A stretch of DNA of 64,000 bases, taken from contig NZ_CP024966.1 in the NCBI RefSeq assembly GCF_002804125.1, forward strand, positions 682,001 to 746,000. The letters are read 5' to 3'. Within the stretch, counting starts at the first letter, position 1. Each line of letters opens with the position of its first letter. Shown here one piece after another: positions 1,519 to 46,653 of the stretch. The translations under genes and the position numbers were made by a program. The notes beneath the pieces were generated by a model, which was given only the letters and a program-made list of their open reading frames with translations, was not told the origin of the DNA and ran no database searches. This DNA is from Mesoplasma entomophilum. Its GTDB lineage: Bacteria; Bacillota_I; Bacilli_A; Mycoplasmatales; Mycoplasmataceae.

Positions 1519-1585
1519 CACTTATAGTCTTCAAATCGGTTTGAAGGCGGGGTCAGTAGCCCTTTATGCTACCCTGTATAAGTTT
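1519..1585 (-). promoter_or_regulatory. 2'-deoxyguanosine (dG-I type) riboswitch aptamer
   Basis: The minus strand shows a purine-family three-way junction: P1 ACTTATA/TATAAGT, P2 GGTAGC/GCTACT with loop ATAAAGG, J2/3 TGACCCCGC, P3 CTTCAAA/TTTGAAG with loop CCGA, and J3/1 ACTATAAGT. The GG in L2 and CC in L3 can form the loop-loop contact. Sequence and position match the 2'-deoxyguanosine riboswitch known from Mesoplasma florum, which sits upstream of ribonucleotide reductase genes. It is inferred to shut off nrdF-nrdI when deoxyguanosine is plentiful, through the downstream terminator. Confidence 0.95.
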
Positions 1586-16573: not shown

Positions 16574-17194
16574 TTAAATCTCCTTCTTAATTTTTTCTAT
16601 ATTTCGTATAACTTCTTCAACTTTCTCATCTAAGTTATTGTTGTTAGCATCAATAACTAAAAATGGAAAATCATTTTTATGTTCTTGGTAATATTCTTCA
16701 TATGATTCATTTAAAATTTTTCAGTACTCATTATCAATACTTAATTCTGCTGATCTTCCACGTTCATTAATTCTTCTAATTGAAGTTTCATCAGAAACTT
16801 TTAAGTATACAACTAAATCAAATTTTAATCTGTCGTTTGGATATTTTAAATTTTCAGAAACTACATATTGAAAGAAATCACAATATGTTTTGTAATCCAT
16901 ATCATCAACATTCCCCATTTTATGACCAACATTCATGAATATTGGATCTTCAATAATTGTTCTATCAAAAATTTTGTTTTTTAAATCTTTGGCTGCAAAT
17001 AATTGTTTTGATCTTGCTGTTAACATGAATATTTGCATTCTAAAAGCATAAGCCTTAATATCTTTGTAATAATCTTCAAAGTAGGGGTTTTCATCTATTG
17101 GCTCAGGAAATATTTCATAATTTAATCTTTCTGATAATTCTTGTGATATTGATGATTTACCTGCTCCTACTGTTCCAAAAATTGCTATTTTCAT
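16574..17194 (-). CDS. Deoxynucleoside kinase (deoxyadenosine/deoxyguanosine kinase family)
   Basis: 206 residues. Phosphorylates salvaged deoxynucleosides to their monophosphates. P-loop GTVGAGKSS at residues 7-15, the DRT motif (D77-R78-T79, in IFDRTIIEDPIF) and the lid arginines in RINERGRSAEL place it in the dCK/dGK family common in mollicutes. Purine preference is typical for this group but cannot be fixed by eye. It would consume deoxyguanosine, the inferred ligand of the nrd riboswitch, which links salvage to control of reduction. Cotranscribed between rluB and yebC. Confidence 0.92.
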
Positions 17195-38971: not shown

Positions 38972-38993
38972 GAGTTTTAAAGCTCTTATTTTT
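38965..38993. terminator. Bidirectional terminator between RNase J and ABC permease genes
   Basis: AATAAGAG-TTTTAAAG-CTCTTATT with A-run before and T-run after serves both strands. It sits on the last bases of both genes: the rnj stop is at 38971 and the permease stop at 38993. Confidence 0.88.
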
Positions 38994-41608
38994 TAATAAT
39001 TAATATTTGTTATTTTTAATTTCCTAATCTTTTTTGAATATTTAATAGAATTTTTCAAGTCTTTTCGTACTTTGAAATCCGTTGATGCTTTTAGTAATTT
39101 TTTAAATTTAATTATTTCCATTTTTGATTCTTGTTTGACTTCGGCAACTCAAACCTTTCTTTTAAAAGCAAAATCTTTTTTATATTTTTTGAATTTTAAT
39201 TCTTCTAATTTAACAATATTACTGTCAGCTATTAAATTATTATATTTTTTTCTAATGTTATAGAAATCTATATAAGCTTTGTTTCATGCGTTTTTAAATG
39301 AAAGTTTTTCTTCTTTTTTAATTCTTATTGCATTATTCATTATAGTTTGATTTGTATAAGCGTATAAAGACATTGATTCTTGATATGATAGTTTAGCATC
39401 TAAATTTAATAGTTTTTCATTTGATTTAAAAGTTGAAAAAAATCTTTGATTTACGAAATTTATTATCGAAGAAATTAAATTTAAATTAGTACCAAATGAA
39501 AGTTTATTTCTTATTGAAGCTGAAATAAATTCAATTAATAACGTGAATAAAATGATACCAAATAATAAAGCTCCAAATTCATTGAAATATTGATCTGTAA
39601 AATATGAATTTAATAAATATCCCATATTACCTGCTCCAACAGCTCCTAGCATTGCGACTTCTTTGAAGTTTATATCAAATCTATAAATGATATTTGACAT
39701 GGCTGCTGTTGATGTTTGAGACATTATTCCATATCTTAATTTGGCAAATCAGTTAACTCCTGTTGCCTCAAGTTGAAAAATTATTTTTTGATTTATATCA
39801 TCAAATAACTCCCTATTATATTTTGTAAGCATACCTATAGTTCCCATAATAAGTGCTAATACACCTGTGAAAGGACCCATTCCGACAACTATGACAAAAA
39901 TTAATGCATAAATGTATGTTGGAATGGCTCTTATCATTGATGTTAATGCTATAAAAAATCTTGCCACATATTTGTTAACTATTTTTTCTGATGATAACAT
40001 ACCTAATACATATGCTATTACTGCGCCTATAAAAGTTCCAACAACTGCAATAGATAAAGTTTCATATAAAAGATACATAACGCTATAAGGCGCTCTATTA
40101 TTTCCTCCATTGGCTTTTGATATGAACAATGATGACCAATTTATTTTAAAAATTTCTAATAAATTTCTATTTGTAATTTCAATCATTTCTTTTGAAGAAA
40201 GTTTTCAGTTAATCAATGTTAAGGTGTAAATAAAGAAACCAAATATAATTAAATAAAGTATTATTCTTTTTATGTAACTCTTAGGCTCACTTCTTAAAGC
40301 TTTTTCAATTGTTAAATTTTCAAGAAATTCTTTGTGTGATTTTGTTCTTTCAATTTTTAAATTTTCGATTTTTAAATTTTTAGCATTATCCACTTCCAGT
40401 TTAAGTTTTGCTTGAGATATTTTATCAATTCGAAATTTAAGTCCAGTTTCTAAATCCTTTGAATATAGATCAAAACTGCCAGGATTACTTTTCTTAAGGT
40501 TTTTATAATTTGCTTTTTCAAACTTAATATTTTCGTTCAAATTCTTTTTAAATTTTGATACCATGTTTTGTCTTTGCACTAGCAATTCTTTTTTTTCAAC
40601 TTCTGATTTTGAATTTTTAATTTTTTCATCTATTTTTACACAAAGAATATTATTTATATAAAAACTAATTGTTTTTTGCGAATTTATTTTTTTAATTTGC
40701 TCATCAAAACGTTTTTGATGTTTTCCATCAATTCTAAAATCTTTATCTTCAATTATATAATTTCTAATAAGTCAAATACATAATTCTAGCAACAATATTA
40801 TGGCAATAAGTAAGCACAACAAGAAACCTACCCTGTTTCATTCGTTATAATCTACAGCGTTATTAATCATTTGACCAATCCCTACTCTTGTTACACCCGC
40901 TATAATAGAAACATATCTAATGTTTGTTTCTAATGAGTAAAACATTATTGAAAGAACATGATGAGAAACTTGTGGTCAAACAGCCGCTCTAAATGAAACT
41001 GTTTTGTTAGCTCCTGTAGCTTGTGATGTTGAAAATATTTTTACATTGATCTGTTCAATTCTTTCGTACAAAGTTTTTCCTGAAATAGAAAATGTAAAAA
41101 ATGTCAATGATAAAGTTATTGTAAATGTTGAAGCTCCAAAATAGTTAACTAAAATTAAAGCATAAACAAATGAAGGAATAGTTCTAAATACCGACAATAT
41201 AAGTCTTGCAATAAAATTCACAGATTTATTTCTTGTAACGTTAGATGATGCTAATACAGCAATAGGTATTGCTATAATAACTCCTATAATAGTACCTGCA
41301 AAAGCCATTACAACTGTGTCTCAAATTGAAACAAAAGCATTATATAAAAATGAATGGCCTGTTTCATTTACTAAGTTAAAATCTGTTCAATCTCATTTAA
41401 ACATATCCCCTATTCTTTCAAAAAGGCTAGGCATATCTTTAAAAAATTCCATTCATTTTGAATCAAGTGTAAAAAAAGATAATATAACTATAAATAATGT
41501 AAATAAAGTTATTGATCAATAAAATAATTTTTTTGGAGATTTTGAATAATTATTTTTTATTTTAAAAGACTTTTGATTAAAAAATGCATTAGATATTCTC
41601 TTTGTCAT
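38993..41608 (-). CDS. Double-length ABC importer permease (phosphonate-family, two PhnE-like domains)
   Basis: 871 residues. It contains two PhnE-like inner-membrane domains in one chain: the first around residues 30-260, the second around 480-720. Each has the permease signature, for example RTIPSFVYALILVNYFG with later SQATGANKTVSFRAAVWPQV, and RAIPTYIYALIFVIVVG with later LEATGVNWFAKLRYGI. A charged, helical linker of about 170 residues joins them, and a charged tail follows. In most bacteria the permease is a separate homodimer. Starts at the ATPase stop (TAATG). Completes the SBP-ATPase-permease operon. Confidence 0.9.
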
Positions 41609-42357
41609 TATTTACCATAAATCTCTTCTAATTTCTCTTTATTTAATTTTTTTGAATCTCCATCAAAAACTATTTCTCCATCTTTTAAACCAATTATTCT
41701 GTCACAATATTTTAAAGCTAAATCAATATGATGAATATTTATTATAACTGTTATATTTAGTTCAAGATTAATTTTTTTAAAATCTTCCATTACTTTATTA
41801 GCCAAAATTGGGTCCAACGCCGAAACTGGTTCATCAGCAATAATTATCTTAGGGTCTTGATTTATTGTTCTAGCTAAAGCAACTCTTTGTTGTTGCCCAC
41901 CGGATAAATTATCTGCTCTTATATATGAAAATTCCAGTAAACTAAGTTTTTCTAAAGCGCTTAAAGCTTTTCTTTTTTCATCTTTATCAAAAAAACCAAT
42001 AATAGCCCTAAAAAAATTCATTTGTGCAACTCTTGAATTCAAAACGTTTTTTAAAACAGTTTGTTTTTCAATATTATTATATTCCTGTGACATAAGACCT
42101 ATGTGTTTTCTTAAGTCTCTTAATTTTTTTCCTTTAGTTTTGCTTATTTCATATTTTTCTTTATCATTAATTTCAATTATAATTTCACCTGATGAAATGC
42201 TATTTATTTTATTAATTGTTTTTAACAATGTTGTTTTTCCGGCCCCGGATAAACCAATTACTGCTACAAATTCCCCATCATTAATTTTTATATTTATATT
42301 TTTTAAAACATGTTTTCCGTTAGGCCAAACTTTTTCAACTTTTTGAAATTCTATCAT
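41608..42357 (-). CDS. ABC importer ATPase (phosphonate-family, PhnC-like)
   Basis: 249 residues. Walker A GLSGAGKTTLLKTINK, Q-loop MSQEYNNI, signature LSGGQQQRVALAR, Walker B IIIADEPVSALDP, and the H-loop IINIHHIDLAL. PhnC-type ATPase. I take ATG 42357 (MIEFQKVEKVWPNGKH), the standard start; an upstream TTG frame is less likely. There is no clear Shine-Dalgarno site, and a 9-bp hairpin lies 19 nt upstream, perhaps lowering expression relative to the binding protein. Confidence 0.92.
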   Translation of the reverse strand: MIEFQKVEKVWPNGKHVLKNINIKINDGEFVAVIGLSGAGKTTLLKTINKINSISSGEIIIEINDKEKYEISKTKGKKLRDLRKHIGLMSQEYNNIEKQTVLKNVLNSRVAQMNFFRAIIGFFDKDEKRKALSALEKLSLLEFSYIRADNLSGGQQQRVALARTINQDPKIIIADEPVSALDPILANKVMEDFKKINLELNITVIINIHHIDLALKYCDRIIGLKDGEIVFDGDSKKLNKEKLEEIYGK

Positions 42358-42375
42358 TCTATTCACGCAACACGC

Positions 42376-42398
42376 AAAATACGCCAAATGCGTATTTT
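42376..42398 (-). repeat. Perfect hairpin between binding-protein and ATPase genes
   Basis: 9-bp perfect stem AAAATACGC/GCGTATTTT with a 5-nt loop. On the minus strand only T4 then GCG follows, so it is a weak terminator at most. It may protect the 3' end of the binding-protein message or attenuate the downstream genes. Confidence 0.55.
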
Positions 42399-42422: not shown

Positions 42423-43637
42423 TTACAAATCTTTTATTAATTTTTCTATTTCATCAGCTTGAACACTACTTGTTGAAATTTGAGTATCTAATGTTTTTTC
42501 TCATTCAATTGATTCTTGATTTTCATCAGGTCCAATATAACCTGTATGGTTATAAACTTTAAAGATATTTTTATTTTCATCTTTACTAATAAGATCTTTA
42601 AATGAATCTCTCAAATCTTTTATAATTTTTTTATCTTGAACTCTTTTTCTTGAATACATAATTCCATCATTTATTATTTTGTCAGACATTCCGATTACGC
42701 TTGAATTTTTGAAAGCTGAAATCGAATCTGATAGATTTGCTATTTCATATCTTATATCACTGAAACCAACAGCAACACCATCTTTCTGAGCTGAAACGTT
42801 TTGTGCTCCTGATGGATAATCAATTTGTTTTACTGAATTTTGATATATGTATTTAATTTGATTGTCATTAAAACCAATAACATTTTTTAATCACATCAAT
42901 GGATAGATTGTTCCTGCACTTGAAGTTTTACTTTTTGATACAGAAAAATTTACTTTACCTTTTGCTTCATCTCCTTTGGCTTCTGGTAAAATTAATTTCT
43001 TTATAACGTCTTTGTAATCAGTATCTGACATTTCACTTGTTATGTTAGCTTTATTAAACAATTCATTATTAACATAAATATATGATCTATAATAAGTTGA
43101 AGTGTTTTGTGTATCTAAATATTTGTCTCTTATTTCTTGTTTTGTGATGCTTGTCCCATCTTCTATTTTTAATGCTTGATTGTATTTTAAAGCATACTCT
43201 TTTGATTCCTTTGCATCCATTTTGTCGCTCATACCTTTTTCTATTCTGTATGAATCTCTTGAAGACTCAAGAAGGATACCTATTTTGTCATATGTCCCGT
43301 CACTTTTATGATTACCTTTGTTTTTATTGTAAGTTCCTACTGGTAAAAAAGCTAAATCAGCTTTACCTGCAGCTAATGTTGAACCTGCAGCTTCATAATT
43401 TGTAGAAGTAGATATTTTAATTTTTTTATTAAATTTTTCTCCACGCTCTTCAGCTCTTGATTTCATTTCTGCTTGAAGCTTTCCTTCCAATGGTTTAACT
43501 GTATTAATAACTTCAGTTGAATTATTTGATGGAATAAAAATAATGTCAAATGTATCTGTTGTTCCACATGATACAACTGTTGTTGCTGCTGTTCCTGTTA
43601 TTCCAATGGCTCCGACTATTGCTAATAATTTTTTCAT
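42423..43637 (-). CDS. Lipoprotein substrate-binding protein of phosphonate-family ABC importer
   Basis: 404 residues. Signal peptide KLLAIVGAIGITGTAATTVV ends in lipobox VVSC with Cys24 as the lipid anchor. The mature part starts TFDIIFIPSNNSTEVINTV and has AAGKADLAFLPVGTY, the fold pattern of PhnD/p37-type binding proteins (family ST..a.aLaaGqvDiafl). Mollicute p37 homologues have been found with other ligands such as thiamine pyrophosphate, so phosphonate is not assured. The purine-type riboswitch in its leader argues for a purine-linked substrate. First gene of the importer operon. Confidence 0.9.
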
Positions 43638-43689
43638 ATTTCCTCCTCTATTTTGAAAAAAAGCAACTTAAAGAAAAACTTCAACATAG

Positions 43690-43720
43690 AAAAAAGGAGT
43701 TTTTTTTTACAAAAAACTCC
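43690..43720 (-). terminator. Riboswitch-controlled terminator of the importer operon
   Basis: Minus strand: GGAGTTTTTTG-TAAA-AAAAACTCC followed by T6. The 5' arm GGAGTTTTT can also pair with the 5' flank of the aptamer (AAAAACTT), so formation of P1 and of the terminator are linked as in the nrd riboswitch. Confidence 0.85.
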
Positions 43721-43725
43721 TACAC

Positions 43726-43788
43726 ACTTATAGTCCCGAGATTGGTCTCGGGGCGGATCAGTAGCCCATTATGCTACCCTGTATAAGT
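43726..43788 (-). promoter_or_regulatory. Purine-family riboswitch, variant of the 2'-dG aptamer
   Basis: P1 ACTTATA/TATAAGT and P2 GGTAGC/GCTACT with loop ATAATGG are near identical to the nrd riboswitch. P3 is replaced by a stronger stem CCCGAGA/TCTCGGG with loop CCAA, which still has the CC for L2-L3 contact. J2/3 is TGATCCGC here against TGACCCCGC in the nrd aptamer, one nucleotide shorter and with T for C. J3/1 ACTATAAGT is the same. Changes in J2/3 alter ligand choice in this family, so this one may bind guanine or 2'-dG. Confidence 0.9.
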
Positions 43789-43812
43789 TTTTCTTATTAA
43801 GTTGTTATTTTC

Positions 43813-45755: not shown

Positions 45756-45763
45756 AAGAATAT

Positions 45764-45877
45764 AACATTTTCGGGGCAAGGTGTAATTCCTTACCGATGG
45801 TAATAGTCCATGAACCTTTACAGGTTGATTCAGTGAAATTCTGAAACCGACGGTATAGTCCGGATGGTAGAAAATGT
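45764..45877 (+). promoter_or_regulatory. FMN riboswitch (RFN element)
   Basis: Conserved RFN blocks in order: GGGGCAAGGTGTAATTCC, CCGATGGTAATAGTCC, GATTCAGTGAAATTCTG, CCGACGGTATAGTCCGGATG. P1 is ACATTTTC/GAAAATGT. FMN binding should reduce expression of the following riboflavin transporter. The P1 3' strand AAAATGT can also pair with ACATTTT just downstream (about 45891-45897), an alternative fold. Confidence 0.95.
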
Positions 45878-45921
45878 CAGCAGATGATAAACATTTTTTG
45901 TTTACTTTTTTGCTGTACGCC

Positions 45922-45966: not shown

Positions 45967-46653
45967 GTGAATAAAAAGTATAAAATCTGAAATTATAAAT
46001 ATGATTTTGCAGAAATAAATTTCAAAAACTGAAAAGAAGTTTTTCATGATACTTTTAGACTTAATATAAGAAAACTTGCACTTCTTTCAATGTTATTTGC
46101 TTTTGAAATTTTAATGACAATTATTTCTAAAATAATAATGGGTATAGCTATACCAATGATCGTTGGTGTTTATACAATTGAAATATCTTTTTTCGTAATA
46201 TTAATTATTTATTTATGTTCAAACTATTTGTATGCATCTATTTTATCTATTAGTGCCATCTGATTTAGGCTATTGCTTGGTAGCGAACCAATTGGTTTAC
46301 TTTCAATGATGATTTCTGATATGGTTTTCTTAACGATATTTGCAATAGTTTTCTTTTTTCTTAAAAAATTTATTCTTTTAAGATTTGAATTTAAAAATCA
46401 AATTAAAGTGTTTGCTTATTTGATATCCATAGGTGGCTTAATTTCAATGTTTGCATCTGGTTTTATTTCTATGCTATGTAATGACACTTTCATATTTAAT
46501 ATGTATTACTTGTCTGACAGTGATAGTGGATATTGAAATATGCTTTTATGAGTTGGGTTTGGAGTTACATTAGCTAAATATGTGATTAACATAATATTAT
46601 TTATTTCTACAATTAAGGTTCTTTTCATTTTAATAAAACAATCAAGAGCATAA
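45967..46653 (+). CDS. ribU: Riboflavin transporter, ECF S component (RibU-like)
   Basis: 228 residues with about six membrane segments (from [20 protein letters not shown] on). Start is GTG 45967 with a strong AAGGAGGT site; no ATG fits. The preceding FMN riboswitch indicates riboflavin or FMN uptake, and the size and topology fit the RibU S subunit of an ECF transporter. Sequence similarity to RibU is weak by eye, so the gene assignment depends mainly on the riboswitch. Confidence 0.8.

Follow-up and report, generated by a model that had tools for sequence, protein, structure and literature searches.

With a probability of roughly two in three, a riboswitch of the 2'-dG-I class acts as an OFF switch governing an ABC importer of the PhnD/PhnC/PhnE type co-opted for nucleic-acid salvage in Mesoplasma entomophilum. 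The aptamer and its class, an intrinsic terminator, a predicted helix competition, the phnD-phnC-phnE operon, and the association of such operons with purine aptamers and nucleotide genes were found by computation in a 64,000-nucleotide stretch of DNA (the window) and in related genomes (Table 1). The transporter is the stronger result; the aptamer adds one more copy to a type of switch that was already known.

Table 1. Features of the phn leader and operon and of other riboswitches in the window (positions in window coordinates).
Feature	Position	Strand	Evidence
2'-dG-I class aptamer (phn)	43726-43788	-	Rfam RF01510, 91.2 bits, E 6.4e-19, gathering cut-off 51
P1 of phn aptamer	43782-43788 with 43726-43732	-	
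P2 of phn aptamer	43773-43778 with 43760-43765	-	
J2/3 of phn aptamer (GATCCGC)	43753-43759	-	
P3 of phn aptamer	43746-43752 with 43735-43741	-	
C51 of phn aptamer (C58 in M. florum I-A numbering)	43755	-	sequence and alignment
C74 of phn aptamer (C80 in I-A)	43733	-	sequence and alignment; predicted Watson-Crick partner of the guanine base
Intrinsic terminator (11-pair stem 43695-43721, then T run)	43689-43721	-	1 found, 0.2 expected in shuffles
Predicted antiterminator, 5' strand (contains most of the P1 5' strand)	43780-43797	-	MFE folding
Predicted antiterminator, 3' strand (overlaps the terminator 5' half)	43709-43726	-	MFE folding
phnD-like substrate-binding lipoprotein, 404 aa (code 4)	42423-43637	-	PF12974, E 5.7e-9, over cut-off; lipoprotein signal NF038029
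phnC ATPase, 259 aa from TTG (likelier start ATG at 42357)	41608-42387	-	TIGR02315 equivalog, 332/266 bits
phnE double permease, 871 aa, two PhnE domains	38993-41608	-	TIGR01097 in two stretches, 362/217 bits; two BPD_transp_1 stretches
Sister 2'-dG-I aptamer (nrd switch), before nrdF (391-1413)	1520-1583	-	RF01510, 86.4 bits
FMN riboswitch, before riboflavin-type ECF S component (MMSYN1_0877 family, 45967-46653)	45763-45879	+	RF00050, 119.7 bits

The RF01510 covariance model matches the phn aptamer over its full length and rates it, with its shorter J2/3, above the nrd aptamer, the sole other purine aptamer within the window. Of the interval 43690-43788 given by an earlier sequence-only reading, 43690-43725 proves to be expression platform; its description of P1, P2 and L2 as near-copies of the nrd switch, with a J2/3 one base shorter, is confirmed by alignment, where 52 of 64 positions agree, P1 and P2 are identical, L2 is one base apart, and J2/3 reads GATCCGC against GACCCCGC. 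Its third claim, that P3 had been replaced, fails: the P3 sequence differs from that of the nrd switch, but length, pairing and the ACCNAT loop are kept through compensatory changes, so that exchange for an unrelated sequence is ruled out in favour of compensatory drift. Across 28 distinct related aptamers (nrd, phn, guaA and bmp, all C22-G52), stem pairing is present in 94.7% of cells, as against 28–40% in control alignments slid out of register, with two-sided changes in 71 cells (22 in shuffles) affecting 10 of 21 pairs.

In the binding pocket, sequence and alignment show C51, C74 and the C22-G52 pair (C31-G59 in I-A). The phn switch shares its architecture, near-identical P1 and P2, the ACCNAT L3, C22-G52, C51, C74, and a terminator and antiterminator with the M. 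florum type I-A 2'-dG-I riboswitch of ribonucleotide reductase (Rfam accession: RF01510), from which it differs in the shorter J2/3, the sequence of P3, a terminator much nearer the aptamer, and control of phnDCE instead of nrd. With the guanine riboswitch (Rfam accession: RF00167) it has in common the three-way junction, the L2–L3 contact sequences and C74, but carries C51 rather than U51, C22-G52 rather than U22-A52, A47 rather than U47, and a shorter J2/3. The Bacteroidetes 2'-dG-II riboswitch is likewise C51, with a pyrimidine at the probable equivalent of position 49, although it retains U22-A52 where the phn aptamer has C22-G52, and belongs to an unrelated lineage; sequence identity between 2'-dG-I and 2'-dG-II is low, at 36.7% (PMC8872408).

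As the sequence-only reading had it, the switch precedes genes for a binding protein, an ATPase and a double permease, and a search of Mollicutes for purine aptamers before PhnD-like genes, which that reading had suggested, bears out a purine-family switch on this importer. Strong full-length PhnD relatives occur in 19 of 320 genomes of the order (22 copies), with a purine aptamer at phnD in seven of the 19 and none in the other 12. Two specificities are represented: the C51 type in the genome of the window (G000), G009, G010 and G059, and the canonical guanine type, with U51, in G034, G027 and G054. The G027 match is weak, at 38.3 bits for a cut-off of 37, and the one in G054 (M. seiffertii) lies between two phnD copies. 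With the chance background set generously at 10 aptamers for every 700 genes, the probability of 7 of 19 is ∼5e-9, and that of at least 4 of 19, counting four independent cases, is ∼1e-4. The aptamer-bearing loci are scattered on the PhnD tree and do not form one clade; a single origin with losses may explain them. In M. grammopterae (G010) and in G009, which we take to be probably M. florum L1, the switch before phnDCE has the J2/3 GAACCGC, and across three Mesoplasma species (these two and M. entomophilum) and G059 it is kept with compensatory changes in P3. Nothing similar was found in a phage collection. Work in 2007 reportedly described purine-aptamer variants of the near-minimal, non-pathogenic M. 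florum, and the phn copy may already have been among the RNAs of that study; M. florum carries many 2'-dG-I riboswitches (PMC8872408), and Rfam describes RF01510 as an M. florum family.

The gene company of phnDCE is varied yet consistently nucleotide-related, which favours a role in nucleotide salvage. A gene for an NrnA-like DHH/DHHA1 protein lies 4–17 nt after phnE in 12 loci, and in two genomes an NrnA-like gene stands under a C51 aptamer of its own; for one such partner run against NCBIfam, NrnA is the best model, at 238 bits below the equivalog cut-off of 350. NrnA-like proteins hydrolyse phosphodiesters. Elsewhere the order is thyA-folA-acyltransferase-deoA-phnD-phnD-phnC-phnE-nrnA (G036); in G037, pyrR-pyrB-pyrC comes after a second phnDCE copy, and the genome also has deoC two genes upstream of phn genes; genes for a Bmp nucleoside importer end directly upstream of the phn aptamer in G059, with deoA nearby; hpt-pfkA-pyk-pyk lies upstream in G028, G041 and G043; and guaB-guaA is divergent from the phn operon in G003. 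Absence of phnDCE from four of the seven genus members indicates that the cargo has other routes.

It is probable that the cargo belongs to nucleic-acid salvage, most likely as a (deoxy)nucleotide, a short oligonucleotide or a nucleoside, while phosphonate or thiamine is unlikely. The earlier expectation of a purine, nucleoside or nucleotide cargo in place of a phosphonate is supported by the nucleotide-metabolism partners, by separate thiamine uptake, and by the aptamers in seven of 19 genomes. Within this range, a phosphorylated cargo is favoured because of the conserved NrnA-like partner and the PhnD-type binding protein, although its being specifically phosphorylated falls just short of an even chance. 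The PhnD-type proteins whose structures are known have phosphate, phosphite or phosphonates as ligands, and the residues S236, T238 and S239, invariant or nearly so in the PhnD family (A2) and situated in the stretch where the Pfam match begins, may form a phosphoryl-binding motif, judging from what is known of PhnD.

Against a nucleotide cargo stands the expectation that the phn aptamer would report a nucleoside, and the importer could carry a nucleoside such as deoxyguanosine, the switch then serving as end-product feedback on its own cargo. The predicted ligand 2'-dG is itself a nucleoside, the neighbouring deoA and deoC products act on nucleosides and nucleoside products, and the aptamer of a Bmp nucleoside-binding gene in G012 has the same J2/3, GATCCGC, as the phn switch. 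This arrangement is nevertheless somewhat unlikely, being at odds with both the phosphodiesterase-family partner and the ligands of known PhnD-type structures, and the genome already encodes a nucleoside importer of the Bmp type, in an operon that includes deoD and stands under a separate aptamer (L109, G000:C1:825000-833000; aptamer-bmp-ATPase-permease-permease-deoD). That importer resembles the Bmp/PnrA-type (RnsABCD) systems, which are also found under purine-family aptamers, but it belongs to another protein family than PhnDCE and its aptamer is U51. The small deoxyguanosine/guanine regulon outlined by the sequence-only reading extends to guaA and this Bmp importer, both with U51 aptamers, whereas the deoxynucleoside kinase that it included (16574-17194) carries no aptamer and is related by function.

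The Bmp aptamer, U51 on a 2'-dG-I scaffold, scores 71.2 bits in RF01510, and membership of that family alone therefore does not tell the ligand. Position 51 is more informative: C58 of I-A, its equivalent, decides between nucleoside and nucleobase, with C58U causing an 83-fold loss of affinity; U51C by itself switches a guanine aptamer over to dG; and the base of the ligand is paired by C80 (position 74) (PMC8872408). A calibration set of 95 purine-family aptamer matches in related Mollicutes genomes was sorted by base 51 and associated gene. C51 is found in 11 of 11 aptamers at nrdF, 1 of 1 at a B12-type ribonucleotide reductase and 2 of 2 at NrnA-like genes, and U51 in 9 of 9 at guaA and 7 of 7 at nucleobase permeases, while bmp genes and lipoproteins have both. 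No exception was seen, and the association gives a Fisher p of 7e-9, in which independence is overstated, many rows being orthologues. Positions 22/52, parsed in 92 of the aptamers, are C-G in 45, U-A in 47 and mixed in none. C51 thus points to 2'-dG over guanine as the ligand of the phn switch, and because of the C51 pocket and the sorting of base 51 by gene among relatives, the phn aptamer is predicted, probably rightly, to sense 2'-dG, and would turn transcription off.

The shortened J2/3 tempers this assignment. The full-length J2/3 of I-A, including the contact of position 56 with the 3'-OH, which falls within the shortened stretch, is lacking by one base. The missing base is most simply position 48, with the U moving to position 49, although the alignment cannot prove which base it is; position 48 is flipped out in the guanine riboswitch. 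If position 48 is the one missing, U49 and C51 would recall the 2'-dG-II core. With its shorter J2/3, the phn aptamer may tell dG, guanosine and guanine apart differently and could be less selective, and the guaA and bmp aptamers (GACCTGC, U51) share that J2/3 length, as would be expected if the phn aptamer sensed guanine or guanosine instead of 2'-dG. That ligand is unlikely, since the phn aptamer, unlike those U51 aptamers, has the C51 whose change to U is so costly in I-A.

A second C51 architecture retains U22-A52 (for example, GACTCCAC) and lies before nrdF, bmp, NrnA-like and B12-type ribonucleotide reductase genes at loci L093, L094, L085, L084, L088, L097, L098, L090, L092, L103 and L134–L136 of genomes G001, G002, G051–G055 and G059; in sequence, these aptamers look like an intermediate between guanine aptamers and 2'-dG-I. 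At one of these loci in G059, a C51 purine aptamer (L090:528-592) scores 52.1 bits, above the cut-off, and is followed by the gene for a B12-dependent ribonucleotide reductase (L090:674-3142; NF005991, 1259 bits). Sorted by base 51 and gene, the aptamer series amounts to a natural record of a guanine aptamer becoming a 2'-dG aptamer.

Lipoprotein genes form a further group of purine-aptamer targets. Three to five near-identical 2'-dG-I aptamers within ∼5 kb precede tandem lipoprotein genes at L117 (G008:C1:36256-41538) and L077 (G012:C1:26402-29176), a pattern suggestive of joint duplication of aptamer and lipoprotein, and a decayed 2'-dG-I-like copy (28.6 bits) that has lost the 5' strand of P1 lies before the gene for a 742-aa lipoprotein at L110 (G000:C1:538139-538197). 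A large surface lipoprotein, weakly P68-like and of the VIFMLPGEAVG type, is encoded behind C51 or U51 purine aptamers in several genera (L123:2717-4792, L095, L096, L108, L131, L139 and L140), and its cargo may be a nucleoside or nucleotide.

Folding of the phn leader is consistent with a transcriptional OFF switch, in that a terminator directly 3' of P1 and a mutually exclusive antiterminator sharing P1 are both predicted. When the growing transcript is folded, the aptamer forms first. With 16 to 24 nt transcribed beyond it, the MFE structure is the antiterminator with P1 broken, and keeping P1 costs 4–6 kcal/mol; addition of the terminator's 3' half then shifts the balance to the terminator together with P1. 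The M. florum L1-like copy (G009) shows similar predicted behaviour, and in the G059 leader P1 is displaced too, by other pairings, the antiterminator there being less clear. Matches in a promoter search at the phn operon were near chance level. The published scheme for the M. florum nrd switch is the same helix competition, operating as an OFF switch (PMC5838219), and by analogy the direction of control at the phn operon would also be OFF.

The ligand, control direction and cargo that we infer for the phn system combine as follows. At high cellular 2'-dG, or a high guanine-nucleoside pool reported by it, the ligand would pair with C74 while C51 grips its sugar edge; binding would lock P1 and block the antiterminator, so that the terminator would stop transcription before phnD. 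At low 2'-dG the antiterminator would form and the importer would be made. The PhnD/PhnC/PhnE-type importer would have been recruited to nucleic-acid salvage. Its likeliest cargo would be a phosphorylated nucleic-acid fragment, either a deoxynucleoside monophosphate or an oligonucleotide of very short length, and the next likeliest a nucleoside without phosphate.

A thiamine or thiamine diphosphate (ThDP) cargo, with an incidental purine switch, would align the importer with syn3A 0706–0708 and with the distant MG289 and Mh-p37 (p37/Cypl, with p29/p69), Mollicutes systems that likewise combine a PhnD-like protein with PhnC and PhnE. Thiamine or ThDP is the ligand of PhnD-like binding proteins in other mycoplasmas, and the syn3A system has been modelled as a ThDP importer (PMC6609329). 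In a fold search with a low-confidence PhnD model built from four sequences (pLDDT 52, pTM 0.47), MG289, PhnD, PtxB and p37 match about equally, MG289 best, so that the fold does not decide; the structural resemblance to MG289 and p37 is weak. By sequence, however, a PhnD-family profile search of the PDB gives only a marginal match, to PtxB, and finds neither p37 nor MG289 even at E 10; the neighbours differ from those of the p37/MG289 systems and are recurrently nucleotide genes; and the genome's only TPP riboswitch lies elsewhere, directly before ThiT (Pfam accession: PF09515), with a thiamin pyrophosphokinase also present. A TPP riboswitch was found at no scanned phnD locus, and P37-like loci belonging to a different family, also scanned, had no riboswitch either. 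Thiamine is therefore a very unlikely cargo and was rejected, separate thiamine uptake through ThiT being available in the genome.

Most improbable of all is a genuine phosphonate or phosphate importer with a stray copy of the nrd switch, rejected in spite of PhnC and PhnE scoring above the curated cut-offs for phosphonate importers, PhnD passing PF12974, and the copying of Mesoplasma aptamers to sites including unrelated lipoproteins, since the ∼404-aa lipoprotein PhnD fails the phosphonate subfamily model TIGR01098 (34.8 bits against 112), the permease is a fused double protein, the partners belong to nucleotide metabolism, PhnJ was not found in a genome search covering PhnJ alone among phosphonate pathways, the switch is retained with compensatory P3 changes, other genera have U51 aptamers at orthologues, and stray copying is disfavoured even under the generous background given above.

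Reports from the 1980s describe the uptake of deoxymononucleotides in M. mycoides. The nucleotides are reported to enter intact, by a system distinct from nucleoside uptake and with no gene assigned (PMC6609329), and import of nuclease products by a PhnC/PhnE system of M. meleagridis has been proposed earlier on weak positional grounds (PMC4807054). The evidence presented here is independent of, and stronger than, that positional argument. It may tentatively be proposed, with the odds somewhat against it, that the missing importer through which Mollicutes take up intact deoxynucleotides or short pieces of DNA is PhnDCE, as found in Mesoplasma and Spiroplasma-like relatives, partnered by an NrnA-like phosphodiesterase and controlled by 2'-dG or guanine riboswitches. 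In models of the minimal cell and of M. genitalium, systems of the PhnDCE type appear as importers of thiamine diphosphate or phosphonates, and the riboswitch provides an independent readout of the purpose of the operon. If the proposal is true, an orphan deoxynucleotide uptake activity would gain a candidate gene, and some ‘phosphonate’ and ‘thiamine diphosphate’ assignments in models of minimal cells would have to be revised.
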